A stretch of DNA of 64,000 bases, taken from positions 901,001-965,000 of the forward strand of contig NZ_LR134167.1 in assembly GCF_900635775.1 (NCBI RefSeq), read 5' to 3'. The first letter of the stretch is position 1, and every line of letters starts with the position of its first letter. The position numbers were made by a program, and so were the translations under genes. This document shows, one piece after another, positions 35,750-45,603 of this stretch. Source of the DNA: Avibacterium volantium (GTDB lineage: Bacteria; Pseudomonadota; Gammaproteobacteria; Enterobacterales; Pasteurellaceae). The notes under the pieces were generated by a model. That model did no database searches. It had not been told where the DNA came from and saw only the letters and a program-made list of their open reading frames with translations.

Positions 35750-36028
35750 TTACTTATGCTCTTTCACAATGCGATAAAAAGTTTCGTTATTTTTTACCAT
35801 TTCGTGCTGTAATCTGGCGCGCTCTTCAATGGCGTCCACCCCTTCTTTGAGATCTTTAATTTCTGCCGCAATCACTTGATTACGCTGGGAAAGTTTTTCA
35901 TTTTCTTGTTGGCGAAGGGTGATTTCTTTTTCGGTGTTTTTGTAATCTAAATAACCGTTTTTGCCGAACCAAAAATTGTATTGAAAAAGTAAGGCAAAAC
36001 CCGCCAAAATAAAAATTAATAAACGCAT
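35750..36028 (-). CDS. ftsB: Cell division protein FtsB
   Basis: A small bitopic divisome protein that works with FtsL and FtsQ. From the ATG at 36028 it is 92 residues with one membrane span (MRLLIFILAGFALLFQYNFW), the FGKNGYLD motif and a coiled coil (about 30-70). A frame continuing upstream to 36106 has no family support and would run into the repeat element at 36088-36193, so I use the shorter start. Confidence 0.9.
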   Translation of the reverse strand: MRLLIFILAGFALLFQYNFWFGKNGYLDYKNTEKEITLRQQENEKLSQRNQVIAAEIKDLKEGVDAIEERARLQHEMVKNNETFYRIVKEHK

Positions 36029-36087
36029 AAATTTTCTCGTCAATTGAACGTAGCGATAGTTTACCTTGAAATGAGTAACATTTGTAG

Positions 36088-36193
36088 TATAGTCGTTTGA
36101 TTTCAAAATAATACTGTGTTACTTCGCCTTGCCGTACTAGTTGTACTGTCTGCGGCTTGTTGCCTTGTCTTATTTTGAACTTAAACGACTATA
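36088..36193. repeat. MITE-like 106-bp intergenic repeat element
   Basis: The ends are near-perfect 25-bp inverted repeats (22 of 25 match), each beginning TATAGTCGTTT. The core is GC-richer than its surroundings and reads CTTGCCGTACTAGTTGTAC and CTGTCTGCGGCTTGTTGCC. From memory this core resembles repeated intergenic elements of Haemophilus and Neisseria. It has no coding capacity. It lies 59 bases upstream of the ftsB start. Confidence 0.65.
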
Positions 36194-36238
36194 AATGGAT
36201 ATTTTTAAGTGCGGTGTAATTTTGGCAATTTTATGAAA

Positions 36239-36263
36239 AAAGCCTCGTTAGACGAGGCTTTAG
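36239..36263 (-). terminator. Terminator after nanM
   Basis: AAGCCTCGT and ACGAGGCTT form a 9-bp stem around TAG, and the minus strand has a T run after it. It ends the siaP-nanM transcript. Confidence 0.85.
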
Positions 36264-36283
36264 ATTATGTTTATCGGTATGTT

Positions 36284-37429
36284 TTATTCAACAACCAGTT
36301 TTTTTCCGTCATAACTCATTGTTTGAACTGCGGTGAGCGCTTTTCCTCCTTGACCTTCACCACCGATTAATAGCACTTTGTTATCATAGCTGACACTTAC
36401 CCCATAACCAATCGGCTCTGGTAAGTTACCAATGATTTTCCAAGTGCCTTTTTTGGCATTGAGTGCATAAACATCACTATGCCAAGTTTTTTTCAACCCA
36501 CCAGTGCGATGTGCATCGGTGATACCATTTTGATAATTTGCTCGCGCGCCCGGGAAGTTTGCCCCACCGGTTACGATATAGTTACCGTAGGTGTAGCCCC
36601 CCATTGCACCTGCAATACCTTCTTGTTGTTTTTGCCCTTTCGGTGTTGGTAAATCACCTAATTTTTTCCAAGTAACTCCATTTTTACCGATTGTACCAAG
36701 TTCCGTGGTCTGGGTTCGCAATCCTGCTTTTACTTCTCCGTTTACAACAAGAAGTTTGTTATCCTTAATTGCTACAGCTGCCCCTGCTCGTCCTGAGTAT
36801 GGGAAAATGCCTTCGTTACGCCAAGTATTGGTGGCTGGCTCATAGCTGACAATTTCTGGTGAGAAGAAGAAATCCTGTACGCGTAAATTGAAATAAGGAT
36901 CAAAAATGGCTTTTTCTTTGTCTTTATCGCCACCTGCGGCTGCGATGTCTTGGAAAAGTCCGTTCCAAATTTCTTGGTTAATTCCGCCTACAAAATAAAT
37001 TTTACCGTTCGTTTCTGCCACACTTGCGCCCACAGCTGAACGTGGTGAGCGAGTTTGCAATTTTGTCCAAGAGTTTGTTTCTGGATCATAGCGATAAGCA
37101 TCATTAATCACTTGATTTTTCGCCACATCAGTATCTTGGAAACCGCCAAACACATAGAGCTTACCATCTACGCCAGCAGAAACAGGCTGATTACGTTTTC
37201 CACCTGGGAAAGCTGGCAGTTCTTGCCATTTAGCGTCTTTCTCTTTTAAATTAAGAGAATAGAATTTATCTCCACCCGTTCCTAAACCTACATAAACGGT
37301 ATCGCCAATTAATGCCCCTGTTCCGCTTTTAATCCCTACAGGCAAATCAGGGTATTGGCTTGCTTGTGCAGCAAAGGCTGTCATTGCAATGGCAGCAAAT
37401 AATGCACTGTGTAATGCTGTTTTTTTCAT
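36284..37429 (-). CDS. nanM: N-acetylneuraminate epimerase (sialic acid mutarotase) NanM
   Basis: A periplasmic Kelch beta-propeller that speeds the conversion of alpha- to beta-Neu5Ac so that the transporter can take it up. Residues 1-23 form a signal peptide (cleavage after AQA). Several kelch repeats are visible, for instance [20 protein letters not shown] and [13 protein letters not shown]. 381 residues. It follows siaP by 52 bases and is followed by a strong terminator. Confidence 0.95.
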
Positions 37430-37481
37430 ATTGACCTCTTGTCGTTAAGGTTATTGCTTAATAAATTGAGTAAGCAAACCG

Positions 37482-38507
<1,026 letters not shown>

Positions 38508-38594
38508 TCAATCTAAATAGTTAGGGCATATTTCTCTTTGGGGATACGACAACGCCAAACAACGGAGGAAATGTCCTAATGGCTATATAATAAA

Positions 38595-38609
38595 TGAAGT
38601 AATATTTCA
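38595..38609. promoter_or_regulatory. Palindromic operator-like site (predicted SiaR site), siaP copy 1
   Basis: TGAAGTAATATTTCA. The identical 15-mer (17 bases with flanking AA) recurs at 40795-40809 in the siaQM-nanE region. RpiR-family sialic acid regulators bind such AT-rich palindromes. The site is 4 bases from a CRP-like box. Confidence 0.6.
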
Positions 38610-38613
38610 TTAC

Positions 38614-38629
38614 TGAGAGCTGTATCACA
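38614..38629. promoter_or_regulatory. CRP-like box upstream of siaP
   Basis: TGAGA-GCTGTA-TCACA matches the CRP consensus TGTGA-N6-TCACA in 9 of 10 bases. CRP is known to activate sialic acid uptake genes in H. influenzae. It lies about 150 bases upstream of the siaP start. Confidence 0.6.
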
Positions 38630-38713
38630 AAATTGAAAAAAGGTTGAAAAAACTTTTAAACGTATTTTTTCTTGAAATGACTTGGTTTTAAACGCATTAA
38701 GCATTTTTTTATA

Positions 38714-38728
38714 TGAAATGATACTCCA
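38714..38728. promoter_or_regulatory. Palindromic operator-like site (predicted SiaR site), siaP copy 2
   Basis: TGAAATGATACTCCA. It fits the motif TGAAAT-N2-TACTYCA shared with the other three copies and lies 119 bp from copy 1. Confidence 0.5.
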
Positions 38729-38802
38729 TTTTTTGCAAAAAGGATTTTTCTAAAAATCAAAGTGCGGTGCTTTTTTTCGGAATTTTTAGTGATAAATTGG
38801 CG

Positions 38803-38837
38803 ATAAAAAAGCGGGTGAATTTCACCCGCACTTTGTT
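38803..38837 (-). terminator. Terminator after siaQM
   Basis: GCGGGTGA (38811-38818) pairs with TCACCCGC (38822-38829) around a 3-base loop, followed on the minus strand by TTTTTTA. It separates siaQM from siaP. Part of it merges with a degenerate uptake sequence (CCCGCACTTT). Confidence 0.8.
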
Positions 38838-38849
38838 TTTGCTTTTCTC

Positions 38850-40697
38850 TTATGGCATTAAGAGATTTGGTATAAAGGTAATAATTTGTGGGAAGATAGT
38901 GATAAGCACCAAGGTAGTAAACACAGGGATTAAGAATGGTAGAACCCCTTTGGTTACCGTACTCACTGGCATATTCCCCACACGGGCTACCACGAACAAT
39001 GCCATTCCCATTGGCGGTGTTAAAATGCCCACCATCATATTTAATGTGGTCATCACGCCAAAGAAGACCAGATCAATGCCGAAATGCACCGCGATTGGAA
39101 TGAGCATTGGTAGCACTAAGAATTGTAGCGCAAGGGCATCAATAAACATTCCTAAGAATAAGAGTAGCAAGTTGATCATAATAAGCACCATTGTTGGTGT
39201 ATCAGCTACTGCCATAAAGAGATCGGCAATGCGCATAGCCACTTGCTCACGAGCGATCATATCGCCGAAGAAGGTTACCGTCATCACCATTAGGGCGGTT
39301 ACCCCAGTGATTGCCATTGCTTCCACACAGCTTTTGAATACCATTTTGAGCGTGAGTTCGCGGTACACAAACATTCCAATAATAATGGAGTAGGCAGCGG
39401 CGATCACGGCGGCTTCAGTTGGGGTGAACAAGCCAGAGAAAATGCCGCCAATAATTAAAATTGGGGTGAGGATTGCCCAAATGGCTTTTTTAAATGCTTC
39501 ACAACGTTGTTGTAGTGAGGCTTTTGGCGTTCTTGGATAATGACGTTTTTTCGCAATGGCATAGTTCATCGCCATTAATGCAATCGTGAGTAAAACCCCA
39601 GGTACAAAGCCTGCGACAAAGAGTTTGGCGATAGATTCATTGGCGATCACACCATAAATAATCATCGCAATACTTGGTGGTACAAGGGGGCCAATAATAC
39701 AAGATGCCGCCGTGATCCCTCCACAAATATCATCATCATAACCGGCATCACGCATTGCTTTAATTTCAAGCTGACCTAAGCCACCAGCGTCTGCTAGTGC
39801 TGAACCTGACATTCCAGAGAAAATCAAACTTGCGCCGATATTAACGTGTCCCATACCGCCAGAATAATGGCCTAACAAGGCTTTGGCGAAGTTGAAAATC
39901 CGTTCGGTTATGCCGCCTGTGTTCATCAAAATCCCCGTTAGGATAAAGAACGGCACGGAAAGCAGTGGGAAGCTGTTTAGGCTATCAACTAATTTTGATG
40001 AGGCAGAATTGACCACATTCCAGCGGGTCATTGCGAAATATAAAATAGTAACAATAAATAGCGACCAGCCCACAGGTGTGCCAAGGAACATAATCACAAG
40101 CCACACAATTAAGCAGACATACACCGCATTGCTGCCAAGTTTGATGTAGTTGCTAATGCGCAAGGCTTTGAACCATTCTGGGTGAGTCATCAAAATTGCA
40201 AACAGAAGCAAAGCGAAAATAATGTAGAAAGTGGCAGGCAAATAGCTCAGTTGATTTTTGTAATTTTCACTTTGCGCTTGCAGAAAGCGAACAAACACTA
40301 AAATTGAAATGAATGGCAGAGGCGCATAAAGCCATTTTTCCGAAATCTGCAAGGATACAATTTCAAAGCTAGCATCTAAAAAGACTTTGAAACCTAAATA
40401 GATAAACAAGAAAATACAAGCAAAGATAATCAGTTGAACAAAAGAGTTGATGGCTTTTCGCACCTTCTCAGGCATTAAATTGGTGAGAAAGTCGATGTAA
40501 ACGTGTTGTTGCGAACGCGTTGCCATACTAATGCCAAACATAGCGACATAAACAAAGAGTAAGCGAGCCAGCTCTTCACTCCAGATAAACGGAGAATCAA
40601 AAACTTGGCGAGCGATGATTTGGGCAAGAAGAATGATAAAAATGACGAGGAATAAAACGCCACCCACCCATTCTTCTAATTTATTGAAATATTTCAT
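38850..40697 (-). CDS. siaQM: Sialic acid TRAP transporter fused permease SiaQM (SiaT)
   Basis: A fused small (Q) and large (M) TRAP membrane subunit. The Q part covers about residues 1-165 (four spans; [19 protein letters not shown] is typical). The M part (about 190-615) has many spans and the TRAP signature [16 protein letters not shown]. With SiaP it drives sodium-coupled Neu5Ac uptake. I use the ATG at 40697, which has GGAG six bases upstream; a start 21 bases further out has no such site. 615 residues. Here siaQM precedes siaP, the reverse of H. influenzae. Confidence 0.95.
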
Positions 40698-40794
40698 AGG
40701 AACTCCAAAGATGTTCAACTAAATAGTGCGATATTTATCCATAATGAAATGCGAAACAGATTTGCCTTGTAATGCTTTCATTCTCAAATTTTAA

Positions 40795-40809
40795 TGAAGT
40801 AATATTTCA
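40795..40809. promoter_or_regulatory. Palindromic operator-like site (predicted SiaR site), siaQM/nanE copy 1
   Basis: TGAAGTAATATTTCA, identical to the site at 38595-38609. It lies about 100 bases upstream of the siaQM start. Confidence 0.6.
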
Positions 40810-40914
40810 AGAAAATCCTAATTTTGGTTTGAGAGGAGAGAAACAGCATTTTCAGCAAAAAACGTATTTCCCTTTTAAAATACAAGGCGAGTGGAGTTTT
40901 TTCAAATTGTTTTA

Positions 40915-40929
40915 TGAAATTTTACTCCA
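40915..40929. promoter_or_regulatory. Palindromic operator-like site (predicted SiaR site), siaQM/nanE copy 2
   Basis: TGAAATTTTACTCCA, closely related to the site at 38714-38728 (13 of 15 bases identical). It lies 120 bp from copy 1 and 3 bases from a CRP-like box. Confidence 0.5.
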
Positions 40930-40932
40930 ATT

Positions 40933-40948
40933 TATGATCTAGATCTCA
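40933..40948. promoter_or_regulatory. CRP-like box between siaQM and nanE
   Basis: TATGA-TCTAGA-TCTCA matches the CRP consensus in 8 of 10 bases and has the AT/GA-rich centre common in strong sites. It lies about 95 bases upstream of nanE. Confidence 0.6.
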
Positions 40949-41043
40949 CTTTTAAACTATTTTTCTTGTATTTTATTTTCAGAGGTCTATCCTAGCACCC
41001 AGCGAAAATTAACTTCCTTTCTTAAAAATATCTTGGAGTTTAT

Positions 41044-41733
41044 ATGTCAAAATTGTCACATCAAGATGTGCTAAACCAGATTCGTTACGGGCTTATTGCC
41101 TCTTGCCAACCTGTTGATGACGGTCCGATGGATAAGCCTGAAATCGTGGCGGCAATGGCACAAGCCTCAGTGCAAGGAGGCGCGGCTGGATTGCGAATTG
41201 AAGGAGTCGAAAACTTAAAAGCCACTCGCCCTGTGGTGGATAAGCCCATTATTGGGATTGTAAAACGTGATTTGCCAGATAGCCCTGTGCGCATTACGCC
41301 GTTTTTGCAGGATATTGAAGATTTAGCAGCGGCAGGGGCAGACATTATTGCCGTGGACGGCACGCTGCGCACGCGTCCTGTATCCCTTGAAAGTGCGGTG
41401 AAAAAAATCAAAGAATTAGGCTGTTTGGCGATGGCCGATTGCTCGAACTTAGAAGAAGGGCTGTATTGCCAAAAACTCGGCTTTGATATTGTGGGCAGCA
41501 CAATGTCGGGCTACACAGGCGGTGAAGTGCCTGATGAGCCTGATTATCAGCTAGTGAAAGATCTCAAAGCCGCAGGCTGTTATGTGATGGCGGAGGGGCG
41601 TTACAACACCCCAGAACTGGCGAAAAAAGCCCTTGAAATTGGCGCAGATGTGGTTACCGTGGGATCGGCGCTCACTCGCTTAGAACATATTGTGAGCTGG
41701 TTTGCCAGTGCGGTGAAATCAGCAAAATCATAA
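41044..41733 (+). CDS. nanE: N-acetylmannosamine-6-phosphate 2-epimerase
   Basis: Converts ManNAc-6-P to GlcNAc-6-P. The TIM-barrel protein of 229 residues shows the catalytic lysine region [18 protein letters not shown] and the phosphate-binding [17 protein letters not shown] stretch at the C-terminus. It is the first gene of the rightward catabolic operon nanE-nanK-nanQ-siaR-nanA. The ATG lies after CTTGGAG. Confidence 0.96.
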
Positions 41734-41751
41734 CTAACACAAGGACGGCGT

Positions 41752-42639
41752 ATGCGTTGTTTAGCATTAGATATTGGTGGCACAAAAATTGCCGCCGCAT
41801 TGGTGGAAAATGGCGTGATTTCACAACGCCAGCAAATTAGCACCCCTCAAGATCAGTCTGCACAAGGAATGGAGCAGGCGTTAAAAACCTTAGTTACAGG
41901 CTATGCAGGGCAGTTTGATGCGGTGGCCGTGGCGTCCACAGGGATTATTAATCGTGGCGTGCTAACCGCATTAAATCCGAAAAATTTGGGTGGCCTTGCT
42001 AATTTTCCACTGAAAGCGTGCATTGCGCGTTACACCGATAAGCCCATTGGCTTACTCAATGACGTGCAAGCTGCGGTCTGTGCGGAATATCAATTACAAG
42101 AACAAAATCAAAGTGCGGTGAAAAATTTCTTATTTATTACCGTATCTACTGGCGTGGGCGGTGGAATTATTTTAAATGGCGAATTAACCACAGGCGAGAA
42201 CGGCATTGCTGGGCATATTGGCCATACCCTCGCTGATCCCAACGGGCCAATGTGTGGTTGTGGGCGTAAAGGTTGTGTGGAAGCCATTGCATCAGGACGT
42301 GCCATTGAGGCGGTGTCTTCACAATGGGCAGAACCTTGTTCACCAAAAGAAGTGTTTGAACGCTTTAGAAAAAATGACGAAAAAGCCACCGCACTTGTGC
42401 AACGTTCCGCACAAGCCATTGCCAATTTAATTGCCGATATGGTGATTAGCCTAGATATTCAAAAAGTGGTGCTAGGCGGTAGTGTGGGTTTGGCGCAAGG
42501 TTATTTGCCTTTAGTACAACAATATTTACAGACAATGCCCAAGTTTTATCAATGCCCTGTTGAAGCCGCTCAATCTGGCGCTGATGCAGGTTTATTAGGT
42601 GCGGCTTATTGGCTAGAACAACAAGTAGTAAAACAATAA
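41752..42639 (+). CDS. nanK: N-acetylmannosamine kinase (ROK family)
   Basis: Phosphorylates ManNAc with ATP. The ROK signature is ALDIGGTKIAAALVE at the N-terminus; the zinc site is MCGCGRKGCVEAIASG near residues 163-178, and GENGIAGHIGHT carries the substrate-binding His. 295 residues. Starts 18 bases after nanE with AAGGACGG upstream. Confidence 0.95.
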   Translation: MRCLALDIGGTKIAAALVENGVISQRQQISTPQDQSAQGMEQALKTLVTGYAGQFDAVAVASTGIINRGVLTALNPKNLGGLANFPLKACIARYTDKPIGLLNDVQAAVCAEYQLQEQNQSAVKNFLFITVSTGVGGGIILNGELTTGENGIAGHIGHTLADPNGPMCGCGRKGCVEAIASGRAIEAVSSQWAEPCSPKEVFERFRKNDEKATALVQRSAQAIANLIADMVISLDIQKVVLGGSVGLAQGYLPLVQQYLQTMPKFYQCPVEAAQSGADAGLLGAAYWLEQQVVKQ

Positions 42640-43128
<489 letters not shown>

Positions 43129-43149
43129 ACAAACACAGGGGGAAGTTTT

Positions 43150-44019
43150 ATGGTTGCAACAAGCGGGAATATTCTGGATACCATCGGGGCGTTGTATAAC
43201 AGCCTGACAAAAACGGAGAAGAAAATTGCGACTACGATCTTATCTTCTCCACATTTGTTAAGCCAATTTTCATTGGCGGAAATTTCACAGCAGTTTGATG
43301 TGGGGGAGGCGACTTTTATTCGCTTTTGCCGAACTCTCGGGTTTAAAGGGTTTACCGATTTCAAATTGCAGCTTTCCATTGAATTGGCAACTAAAGAAAA
43401 ACAGCCAAATTCTTTGTTAGAAAGCGACATTACCAAAAATGATGATACGCAAAACATCGCAGAAAAACTGCATAATTCCATTAATAATGTGATTAAAGAA
43501 ACCATTAATTTGCTTGATGTAAAACAGCTTGAACAAGTGGTGCTGGCAATGCGTCAGGCAAAACGCGTGTTTCTTTTTGGCGTGGGCTCATCAGGCATTA
43601 CCGCAGAAGATACAAAACACAAATTAATGCGTATTGGGTTACAGGTGGACGCTATTAGCAACAACCATTTTATGTATATGCAAGCCGCACTGATGAATAA
43701 AGATGACGTGGTGATTGGCATTAGCCACTCAGGTTATTCTAAAGAAACCACGCAATCTTTAAATATCGCCAAGAAAAATGGGGCAACAACGGTGGCATTA
43801 ACCCACAATTTACGCTCGCCCATTACACAGGTTGCCGATTATGTTCTCATCAACGGACATAGACAGGGGCAACTACAAGGAGATTCTATCGGAACAAAAA
43901 TTGCACAGCTCTTTGTGTTAGATTTAATTTATGCCTTGATCGTGCAAGCCGAAGAAGAAAATGCAACAGAAATGAAGCAAAAAACCGTGAATGTGATTTT
44001 AGAACAGCGGATCAAATAA
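43150..44019 (+). CDS. siaR: Sialic acid utilisation regulator SiaR (RpiR family)
   Basis: A repressor of sialic acid genes with an N-terminal RpiR helix-turn-helix (about 1-80; SLAEISQQFDVGEATFIRFC) and a C-terminal SIS sugar-phosphate-binding domain (about 125-265; FLFGVGSSGITAEDTKHKL). In H. influenzae SiaR represses both divergent sialic acid operons and responds to glucosamine-6-phosphate together with CRP. 289 residues. It is the best candidate to bind the four palindromes described upstream of siaP and nanE. Confidence 0.92.
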   Translation: MVATSGNILDTIGALYNSLTKTEKKIATTILSSPHLLSQFSLAEISQQFDVGEATFIRFCRTLGFKGFTDFKLQLSIELATKEKQPNSLLESDITKNDDTQNIAEKLHNSINNVIKETINLLDVKQLEQVVLAMRQAKRVFLFGVGSSGITAEDTKHKLMRIGLQVDAISNNHFMYMQAALMNKDDVVIGISHSGYSKETTQSLNIAKKNGATTVALTHNLRSPITQVADYVLINGHRQGQLQGDSIGTKIAQLFVLDLIYALIVQAEEENATEMKQKTVNVILEQRIK

Positions 44020-44038
44020 ATTAGTTTAGGAGAAACCA

Positions 44039-44920
44039 ATGAAAAACTTAAAAGGCATTTTTAGCGCCTTGCTTGTATCTTACAACGAAGACGGCTCAAT
44101 CAATGAAAAAGGCTTGCGTGAAATTATTCGCTACAACATTGATAAAATGAAAGTGGACGGTTTGTATGTGGGCGGCAGCACAGGGGAAAACTTTATGATT
44201 TCCACTGCGGAGAAAAAAGAAATTTTCCGTATCGCCAAAGACGAAGCAAAAGACCAAGTAGCATTGATTGCACAAGTAGGGAGCGTCAATTTACACGAGG
44301 CTGTGGAATTAGGGAAATATGCCACGGAACTTGGTTACGACAGCCTTTCAGCGGTAACCCCGTTCTACTACAAATTTAGCTTTGCAGAAATCAAACATTA
44401 TTACGACACCATCATTGCCGAAACAGGCAATAATATGATCGTCTATTCCATTCCATTCTTAACTGGTGTAAATATTGGCGTGGAGCAATTCGGCGAGCTT
44501 TACAAAAACCCGAAAGTGTTAGGCGTAAAATTCACCGCAGGCGATTTCTATTTGCTAGAACGCTTGAAAAAAGCTTACCCTGATCATCTTGTGTGGGCAG
44601 GCTTTGATGAAATGATGCTACCAGCCGCGGCTCTTGGCGTGGACGGCGCGATCGGCAGTACGTTCAACGTTAATGGTATCCGTGCAAGACAAATTTTTGA
44701 ACTTACCCAAGCAGGCAAACTTGCTGAAGCCCGCGAAATTCAACACGTTACTAATGATCTGATTGAAGGCATTTTAGCAAACGGCTTGTATCTCACCATT
44801 AAAGAATTGCTTAAACTTGAAGGCGTGGACGCAGGCTACTGCCGCGAACCAATGACCGCCAAAGCTACCGCACAACAAATTGCTGTGGCAAAAGAGCTCA
44901 AAGCGAAGTTTTTATCATAA
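44039..44920 (+). CDS. nanA: N-acetylneuraminate lyase
   Basis: Class I aldolase that splits Neu5Ac to ManNAc and pyruvate. The Schiff-base lysine lies in [11 protein letters not shown] and the catalytic tyrosine in [11 protein letters not shown]; the pyruvate-binding GGSTGENFM motif is near residue 46. 293 residues. AGGAGAAACC precedes the ATG. Last gene of the catabolic operon; nagA and nagB do not follow it here. Confidence 0.97.
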
Positions 44921-44927
44921 CAAGAAA

Positions 44928-44956
44928 AAAGAGCGGAAAATCTCCGCTCTTTCTTA
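44928..44956 (+). terminator. Terminator after nanA
   Basis: AGAGCGGA (44930-44937) pairs with TCCGCTCT (44943-44950) around AAATC, followed by TTCTT. Confidence 0.8.
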
Positions 44957-45051
44957 GTCATCAATAATTTTTGGCTAGAGTTTCTAGCCTTTTTTCTTAT
45001 GTGTTTACCGCATTCGTGCAAAACAAAGTGCGGTGCAAATTTTTGTGATTT

Positions 45052-45603
45052 TTATAGCAGTAGGGTAGCGCCCCATTTAATAATATCAAAGAAAAACTTA
45101 TTATCATTAGTGGCAACGCCGTTGCTTGCTTTGCCGTCTTCTTCTTTGCTAACCTCTGCCATACCACTTTTATATTGCCCTTTTACCACGGCTAAATCAT
45201 CGCGAGCTTTAAGGCGTAGCACATTACATTCAGCCTGAGTTAAAGGTTCAAATTCGGTTTGTTTGAATTTTTTGAATTGGTATTGTGCATAACCCATAGA
45301 TTTTTCATCATCTTGAATGATTTTGAGGTACTCTTCACCGATAATGTTTTCTAATGGATAGAAGAACACATATTGCGCGTGGATATAAGCGTCTTCTTTA
45401 CTAAAATGTGCTTGCTGAATGCGAGTTAAATTAGGGTAAATACATTGTTCCGCTTGGCGACTTGCTGAAACCCAACGCTGTGCATCTTTATCGGATAACA
45501 CATAATCTGCCCCAGCAAATTGGGCTGGAATAGGTGTTGTAGCACTATGCCAGCTGCAAGCCGCAACTAAACTCATAAAAAAAGTGAGAACGAATTTTTT
45601 CAT
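45052..45603 (-). CDS. Hypothetical lipoprotein (DUF5358-like, Pasteurellaceae)
   Basis: A 183-residue protein with a short signal peptide ending in VAAC, which gives lipidated Cys16. The mature part has no motif I can tie to a function; from memory it resembles DUF5358 lipoproteins restricted to Pasteurellaceae. The C-terminus ends in a hydrophobic stretch ([14 protein letters not shown]), which is odd for a lipoprotein. It follows rlmB by only a couple of bases, so it is probably co-transcribed with it. Confidence 0.65.

Follow-up and report, generated by a model that had tools for sequence, protein, structure and literature searches.

Results

Organization of the sia/nan locus

The stretch of DNA analyzed here, referred to as the window, comprises 64,000 nucleotides of the genome of the bird-associated bacterium Avibacterium volantium (positions 901,001 to 965,000 of NZ_LR134167.1), which is a single contig of 2,230,476 bases. 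The sia/nan proteins encoded in the window are 97 to 100% identical to those of Avibacterium gallinarum, the genus being common to both. The gene order is nanM and siaP on the minus strand, siaQM also on the minus strand, and nanE-nanK-nanQ-siaR-nanA on the plus strand, and a crp-like gene is present in the genome. The relevant genes and control features, in window coordinates, are as follows.

37482 to 38465, minus strand: siaP, sialic acid TRAP binding protein, DctP domain
38587 to 38592, minus strand: probable siaP -10 hexamer, TATTAT, its position conserved in the Avibacterium and Bisgaardia siaP regions
38595 to 38609, no strand assigned: O-A1, SiaR-type operator of siaP, between CRP1 and the probable -10; 19.6 bits
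38614 to 38629, minus strand: CRP1, putative CRP box of siaP, centered at -41.5 if TATTAT is the -10
38714 to 38728, no strand assigned: O-B1, distal member of the siaP operator pair (SiaR type), spaced 119 bp from O-A1, kept in 8 of 8 siaP regions (7 Avibacterium genomes and Bisgaardia)
38811 to 38829, no strand assigned: terminator-like hairpin in the gap between siaQM and siaP, with 8 pairs and a T run on the minus strand
38850 to 40697, minus strand: siaQM, TRAP membrane subunits, DctQ and DctM domains
40795 to 40809, no strand assigned: O-A2, SiaR-type operator on the siaQM side, its 15 bases unchanged in 8 of 9 distinct siaQM-nanE regions, absent in Bisgaardia
40915 to 40929, no strand assigned: O-B2, SiaR-type operator located upstream of CRP2 and spaced 120 bp from O-A2
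40933 to 40948, plus strand: CRP2, putative CRP box of nanE, at about -60 from the inferred start
40966 to 40993, plus strand: probable nanE promoter, TTGTAT (40966 to 40971) and TATCCT (40988 to 40993), conserved 3' of the CRP box in relatives
41003 to 41017, no strand assigned: O3, degenerate operator covering the inferred start of nanE
41044 to 41733, plus strand: nanE, first gene of nanE-nanK-nanQ-siaR-nanA
43150 to 44019, plus strand: siaR, RpiR-family regulator (HTH_6 and SIS domains), the presumed operator binder

A sequence-only reading of this DNA had placed four palindromes and two CRP-like boxes in the two control regions, and direct reading together with a pattern search recovered them at these positions. 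O-A1 and O-A2 are identical (TGAAGTAATATTTCA), with the identity extending over 17 bases, while O-B1 (TGAAATGATACTCCA) and O-B2 (TGAAATTTTACTCCA) share 13 of 15 bases. Start-to-start spacings of 119 and 120 bp agree with that reading, as do the gaps of 3 to 4 bp between each CRP-like box and one member of its pair: the gap is 4 bp at siaP, where CRP1 (TGAGAGCTGTATCACA) has 1 mismatch to TGTGAN6TCACA, and 3 bp at nanE, where CRP2 (TATGATCTAGATCTCA) has 2. The same reading overlooked a fifth site, O3 (CGAAAATTAACTTCC), which scores 6.5 bits in the window under the matrix described below and has stronger counterparts at this position in other genera.

It is probable that siaP has its own promoter, given that the terminator-like hairpin at 38811 to 38829 separates it from siaQM; the stretch scanned held 3 terminator-like sites, compared to 2.4 in shuffled sequences. 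A sigma-70 consensus scan of positions 38400 to 41100 returned 10 promoter-like sites against 7.4 expected, none of them at the inferred siaP or nanE promoters, and the assignment of both promoters thus rests on conserved position. An Rfam search of positions 36000 to 45200 gave one match and none within the control regions. That match, at 37501 to 37617 on the plus strand, is to AaHKsRNA96, an antisense RNA of Aggregatibacter (50.3 bits, cut-off 43), and it lies antisense to the 3' part of siaP. The window as a whole also holds 51 copies of AAGTGCGGT, which we take to be the Pasteurellaceae DNA-uptake sequence, compared to 0.47 expected, and one copy (38760 to 38768) falls within the siaP control region.

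Frequency of the operator motif

The loose consensus of the sequence-only reading proves nothing about these sites, since with up to 3 mismatches it matched 11 places in the window versus 11.87 expected in shuffled sequences. Across the genome it gave 1,380 forward and 1,356 reverse matches versus 1,138 and 1,126 for the reversed pattern, and the loose scans of window and genome are both uninformative. Limiting the consensus to 2 mismatches left 49 places in the genome compared to 32 for the reversed-pattern control, and requiring the strict symmetric form TGRARTNNNAYTYCA lowered the count to 9 places in the 2,230,476 bases (each one listed on both strands), compared to 2 for its reversed control. 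Four of these are the window sites, one lies 51 bp before nagB, two are elsewhere in intergenic DNA, and two are inside open reading frames. A genome-wide scan had been suggested in the sequence-only reading as a check on how common the motif is; the strict form proved rare, with 5 of its 9 places at sia or nagB control regions. The places at genome positions 29793 and 1023222 (intergenic) and 1223491 and 1625493 (inside open reading frames) had no supporting context and were not counted as SiaR targets.

We used the best 80 of 202 loci around siaR relatives for comparison. The 59 loci with nanE fed a motif matrix built from 65 control regions, and the other 21 were held out. The four window sites score 17.2 to 19.6 bits under this matrix, and the 65 regions contain 135 sites above 9 bits versus 4.25 in shuffled sequences, a count made in the matrix's own training regions.

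Association of the motif with siaR and nagB

On its predicted domains, SiaR is an RpiR-family transcriptional regulator (HTH_6, 87.1 bits, cut-off 28.3; SIS, 85.5 bits, cut-off 25), and it is 68 to 69% identical to the SiaR of Haemophilus loci in which siaR lies between nanK and nanA. The held-out set (21 loci, 388,678 bases), which is the sole independent test of the motif and whose species are related to one another, contained 8 sites above 14 bits. Seven of the 8 are located 65 to 106 bp upstream of nanQ and precede nanQ-siaR operons; 13 of the 21 loci had no site above 14 bits.

An operator also precedes nagB in all 7 Avibacterium genomes, a few bases after TATAAT (an AT-rich hexamer read by eye), and a CRP-like box starts 80 bp upstream. 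Five of these operators are identical (18.0 bits) and two are weaker (14.8 and 11.7 bits). The product of nagB, glucosamine-6-phosphate deaminase, consumes GlcN-6P, which in Haemophilus influenzae is the co-activator of SiaR (PMC2946308); in that species nagB and nagA sit within the sialometabolism cluster (PMC2836998). SiaR had been proposed as the natural candidate for the binding protein, and this is supported by the association of strong held-out sites with nanQ-siaR and by the nagB operators. Relatives point to SiaR as the protein that would bind the palindromes.

Outside the Pasteurellaceae, three Yersinia loci (L090 to L092) encode a SiaR relative that is 61 to 62% identical, and in 3 of 3 a 20-bit operator lies 53 to 74 bp before nanE.

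The operator-CRP unit across the Pasteurellaceae

The CRP-like box starts exactly 19 bp after the operator start in 13 of 22 clades and 18 bp after it in 4, two clades having both. Two operators with a CRP-like box are a widespread arrangement at siaP. In 39 of 40 control regions an operator and a CRP-like box are offset by 19 bp; 32 of the 40 carry a second operator above 10 bits no more than 300 bp beyond the CRP box, and 7 have the 19-bp unit alone, with no second operator. In Haemophilus aegyptius (L049) the siaP-side operator is degenerate (8 bits) and a better one stands on the nanE side, and four loci of the Haemophilus haemolyticus type retain the siaP-side operator at 15 to 19 bits. 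The 40 regions leave out the Lonepinella locus L027, which has two tandem siaP genes, and the genomes L154 and L158 are duplicates of L013 and L019.

A common order is found in the siaP regions of Avibacterium and Bisgaardia and at the second Bisgaardia siaQM copy, namely CRP box, 4 bp, operator, 2 bp, and a TATTAT- or TATAAT-like hexamer; Pasteurella bettyae has the same order as Avibacterium siaP with the hexamer slightly shifted. In class II CRP-dependent promoters, CRP is centered near -41.5 of the transcription start. CRP1 would occupy this class II position at siaP provided that TATTAT is the -10. The family as a whole does not share this geometry, given that no obvious -10 hexamer stands by the operator in the Haemophilus, Aggregatibacter, and Rodentibacter group and that the mapped siaP start of H. 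influenzae places CRP at -59 to -80 (PMC2946308).

Several loci depart from the usual gene arrangement. The tandem siaP genes of Lonepinella L027 lie beside siaQM and show 80% and 73% identity to the query; in the 600 bp ahead of the downstream copy, a stretch that overlaps the other siaP copy, neither an operator above 10 bits nor a CRP-like box is present. Bisgaardia hudsonensis (L145, L158) has two siaQM copies, each about 85% identical to that of the window, one beside nanE without siaP and the other elsewhere with siaP, nanM, and its own CRP-operator-TATAAT promoter. In Necropsobacter (L016, 6907 to 7689), where there is no SiaP relative above 37% identity, a GDSL-type hydrolase occupies the usual place of siaP behind a CRP-operator unit, and in Haemophilus parainfluenzae (L054, 6683 to 8149) an N-acetylglucosamine PTS transporter occupies that place. 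The siaP-nanE intergenic regions of L020 to L023 and L037 span 870 to 1025 bp, far longer than in most relatives. Finally, siaP, siaQM, siaR, and nanM each match in two pieces in A. endocarditidis (L089/L149), reflecting either decay or an assembly error.

Differences between the two control regions

The two control regions had been described as a repeated module. They are not copies of one module, differing both in the placement of the CRP box and in inter-operator sequence. The siaP operators enclose their CRP box. In the siaQM/nanE region the box stands beyond the pair, toward nanE, and the pair is split between two divergent genes. We considered and rejected the copying of one control region into the other: in all three comparisons of inter-operator DNA, shuffled sequences aligned as well as the real ones, in 157 of 1000 shuffles for the two window regions and in 235 of 500 and 127 of 500 for the others.

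On the nanE side, the layout reads O-B2, CRP box, TTGTAT, TATCCT, and a palindrome about 41 bp before nanE. Copies at the place of O3 score 10 to 16 bits in Gallibacterium, Necropsobacter, Pasteurella, Volucribacter, one Testudinibacter, L081, and Avibacterium paragallinarum, and the nagB operator, standing after TATAAT, resembles O3 in its placement. Such a position is a usual one for a repressor, and we infer that repression of nanE probably works through O3 and O-B2 jointly. The role of O-A2 is the least clear among the sites, since no CRP box adjoins it and in the locus L153 no -10-like hexamer follows it.

Conservation of the paired spacing

The spacing of the siaP operators in 7 Avibacterium genomes and Bisgaardia is 119, 119, 119, 119, 116, 119, 121, and 122 bp (standard deviation, 1.75), compared to a standard deviation of 18.8 for the operator-to-start distance in the same 8 regions; reduced to four lineages, the ranges are 3 bp versus 49 bp. 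The DNA from the CRP box to the distal operator in A. paragallinarum, genome G012, and Bisgaardia is 68, 67, and 60% identical to that of the window, whereas 200 shuffles averaged 59% and reached at most 67%. In A. paragallinarum, siaP and siaQM-nanE are on different contigs, and in G012 they are about 14 kb apart; in both, the operator pair stays with siaP. The spacing of the siaP pair looks constrained within the Avibacterium/Bisgaardia group, given that it was kept at 116 to 122 bp although the surrounding DNA has diverged and siaP has moved. Conservation in close relatives, another check named in the sequence-only reading, holds for the siaP pair in 8 of 8 regions.

At siaQM/nanE, the pair is spaced 118 to 121 bp in 8 of 9 distinct genomes (7 Avibacterium and Caviibacterium), and O-A2 is absent from the Bisgaardia siaQM/nanE region. 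The spacings in Necropsobacter are 119, 119, and 152 bp and that in P. bettyae is 122 bp. Between clades the spacing varies from 39 to 152 bp, with 39, 50, 61, 69, and 104 bp also occurring, and tests for helical phasing across clades gave p values of 0.04 to 0.52, varying with the set and the period.

Discussion

Our analysis documents the operator-like sites of this locus, their geometry, their conservation in relatives, and their association with siaR. The reading that we favor, and consider reasonably likely, is that SiaR recognizes the palindromes as operators and CRP the adjoining boxes, with O-A1 blocking a CRP-dependent siaP promoter and O-B1 strengthening the repression. Binding by SiaR and CRP, the start sites, the repression, and the effector all enter this scheme as predictions. 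SiaR without effector would occupy O-A1 and exclude RNA polymerase from siaP, because this operator occupies the space from CRP to the -10. O-B1, located 119 bp upstream on the far side of the CRP box, would strengthen the block, most likely through contact between SiaR dimers and perhaps through looping. SiaR without effector would also hold the nanE-side sites, of which O-B2 stands beside the putative CRP box at about -60 of nanE and the weak O3 would cover the nanE start. O-A2 would serve the siaQM side. O-B1 and O-A2 could act as partner sites that raise occupancy, possibly via a SiaR tetramer. The breakdown of sialic acid would then yield a phosphosugar (GlcN-6P in H. influenzae, ManNAc-6P in RpiR relatives) that changes SiaR, and the changed SiaR together with cAMP-CRP would switch the genes on.

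Features of this scheme have precedents. SiaR and CRP bind side by side in H. influenzae (PMC2946308), and RpiR relatives form tetramers bridged by their phosphosugar (PMC12713135). A by-eye reading of an alignment to PDB chain 8v4v_B, which we took to be Streptococcus pneumoniae NanR from its matching residue numbers, pairs NanR S135, R148, D160, S179, S181, and T184 with SiaR S148, R161, H173, S192, S194, and S197. The arginine reported as critical for the S. pneumoniae NanR tetramer is thus kept in SiaR (R161), and its aspartate is replaced by H173. A loop was proposed for S. pneumoniae NanR as one possibility and not demonstrated (PMC12713135). Against the scheme, a 5-bp insertion between the SiaR and CRP sites of H. 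influenzae uncoupled both regulators instead of derepressing, and the authors set SiaR against the looping repressors NagC and GlpR (PMC2946308). Also weighing against it are the 13 held-out loci that have no strong site, the siaP regions that have the 19-bp unit alone, the weak siaP-side operator of L049, the wide range of spacings between clades, the different promoter geometry of H. influenzae, the sigma-70 scan, and the absence of a -10-like hexamer after O-A2 in L153. A DNA loop between the window operators is speculative, and we regard it as somewhat doubtful. We would place slightly less trust still in a more specific proposal, offered tentatively, in which a SiaR tetramer bridges operators about 120 bp apart with the siaP CRP box inside the loop, and in which the H. 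influenzae switch is a reduced descendant whose siaP-side operator has decayed. Such a reduction in H. influenzae is suggested by L049, one genome of that species group.

We weighed four other explanations. The strongest is that the SiaR operators act independently, each serving its own promoter, with O-B1 as a site for activation or local concentration. The range of spacings between clades, from 39 to 152 bp with no clear helical phase, would fit this, as would H. influenzae, which manages with one operator set and in which SiaR also activates (PMC2946308). However, siaP spacing is held at 116 to 122 bp while neighboring distances and sequence drift, and O-B1 has no neighboring gene start of its own; we consider uncoupled operators unlikely, while giving them real weight. 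That the operators belong to another regulator, such as one of the three further RpiR-like matches in the genome (27 to 36% identical), is improbable. RpiR operators do look alike, as the TGAAAGTACTTTTA-type site of S. pneumoniae NanR illustrates (PMC12713135), but the motif travels with siaR across genera, including nanQ-siaR operons without nanE and the three Yersinia loci. Even less probable is that the siaP pair is a passive relic of control-region copying when siaP and siaQM were separated, leaving a second operator without a role. Although the operator order is the same and the spacing nearly the same in the two regions, the inter-operator DNA is no more alike than shuffled sequences in 3 of 3 comparisons, and the pair persists in diverged genomes with siaP elsewhere. 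Chance matches in A+T-rich DNA might explain why the loose consensus at 3 mismatches is no commoner than in shuffled sequences, but the strict motif is rare and is retained genus-wide with a fixed geometry, leaving chance a negligible explanation.

The favored scheme, SiaR operators with adjoining CRP sites, most resembles the SiaR/CRP system of H. influenzae, with the same regulator family and genes, a CRP box a few bases from the SiaR site, and divergent sia/nan genes (PMC2946308; CRP site sequence from PMC2836998). In contrast to nontypeable H. influenzae, where one operator set is common to both operons (PMC2946308), the window has two control regions with two operators each, about 120 bp apart. 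In addition, siaP and siaQM are each served by a control region of their own, the siaP promoter looks class II rather than having CRP at -59 to -80, and nagB has its own operator outside the cluster. The RpiR-family regulators NanR (S. pneumoniae, Vibrio vulnificus) and MurR (Escherichia coli) likewise act on amino-sugar or sialic acid genes through TGAAA...TTTCA-like sites, have more than one site per cluster, and are reported to form tetramers (PMC12713135). Unlike in the window, a CRP partner is absent from the available passages of that source, and the sites are closer, with 17 bp between MurR sites and a total of about 107 bp in the case of V. vulnificus NanR (PMC12713135). The loop-forming repressors NagC and GlpR of E. 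coli also combine several operators per control region with CRP, but they belong to other protein families, and their looping was demonstrated by phasing (PMC2946308), whereas a loop in the window is speculative.

The sequence-only reading knew of no description of such a layout. This stands for the paired arrangement in the literature searched, mostly outside subscription journals, where among the matches listed there was no paper on paired SiaR operators or on the SiaR motif across the Pasteurellaceae. It does not stand for control of sia/nan genes by SiaR and CRP, which is already known from H. influenzae (PMC2946308). Nor did the literature searched yield an earlier account of an operator-CRP unit kept fixed throughout the family, of a control region belonging to siaP separately, or of a nagB operator away from the nan cluster.

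In summary, our findings place the H. influenzae SiaR/CRP switch in a series of Pasteurellaceae layouts in which second operators lie 39 to 152 bp from the CRP-linked one, and the series suggests that a single operator set, as described for H. influenzae, is not the usual arrangement. The predicted geometry of the siaP promoter is now explicit enough to be open to experiment. If the bridging proposal is true, SiaR would combine phosphosugar and cAMP signals through the opening of one loop. The conserved pair enclosing a CRP box is a convenient place to ask whether RpiR regulators loop DNA.
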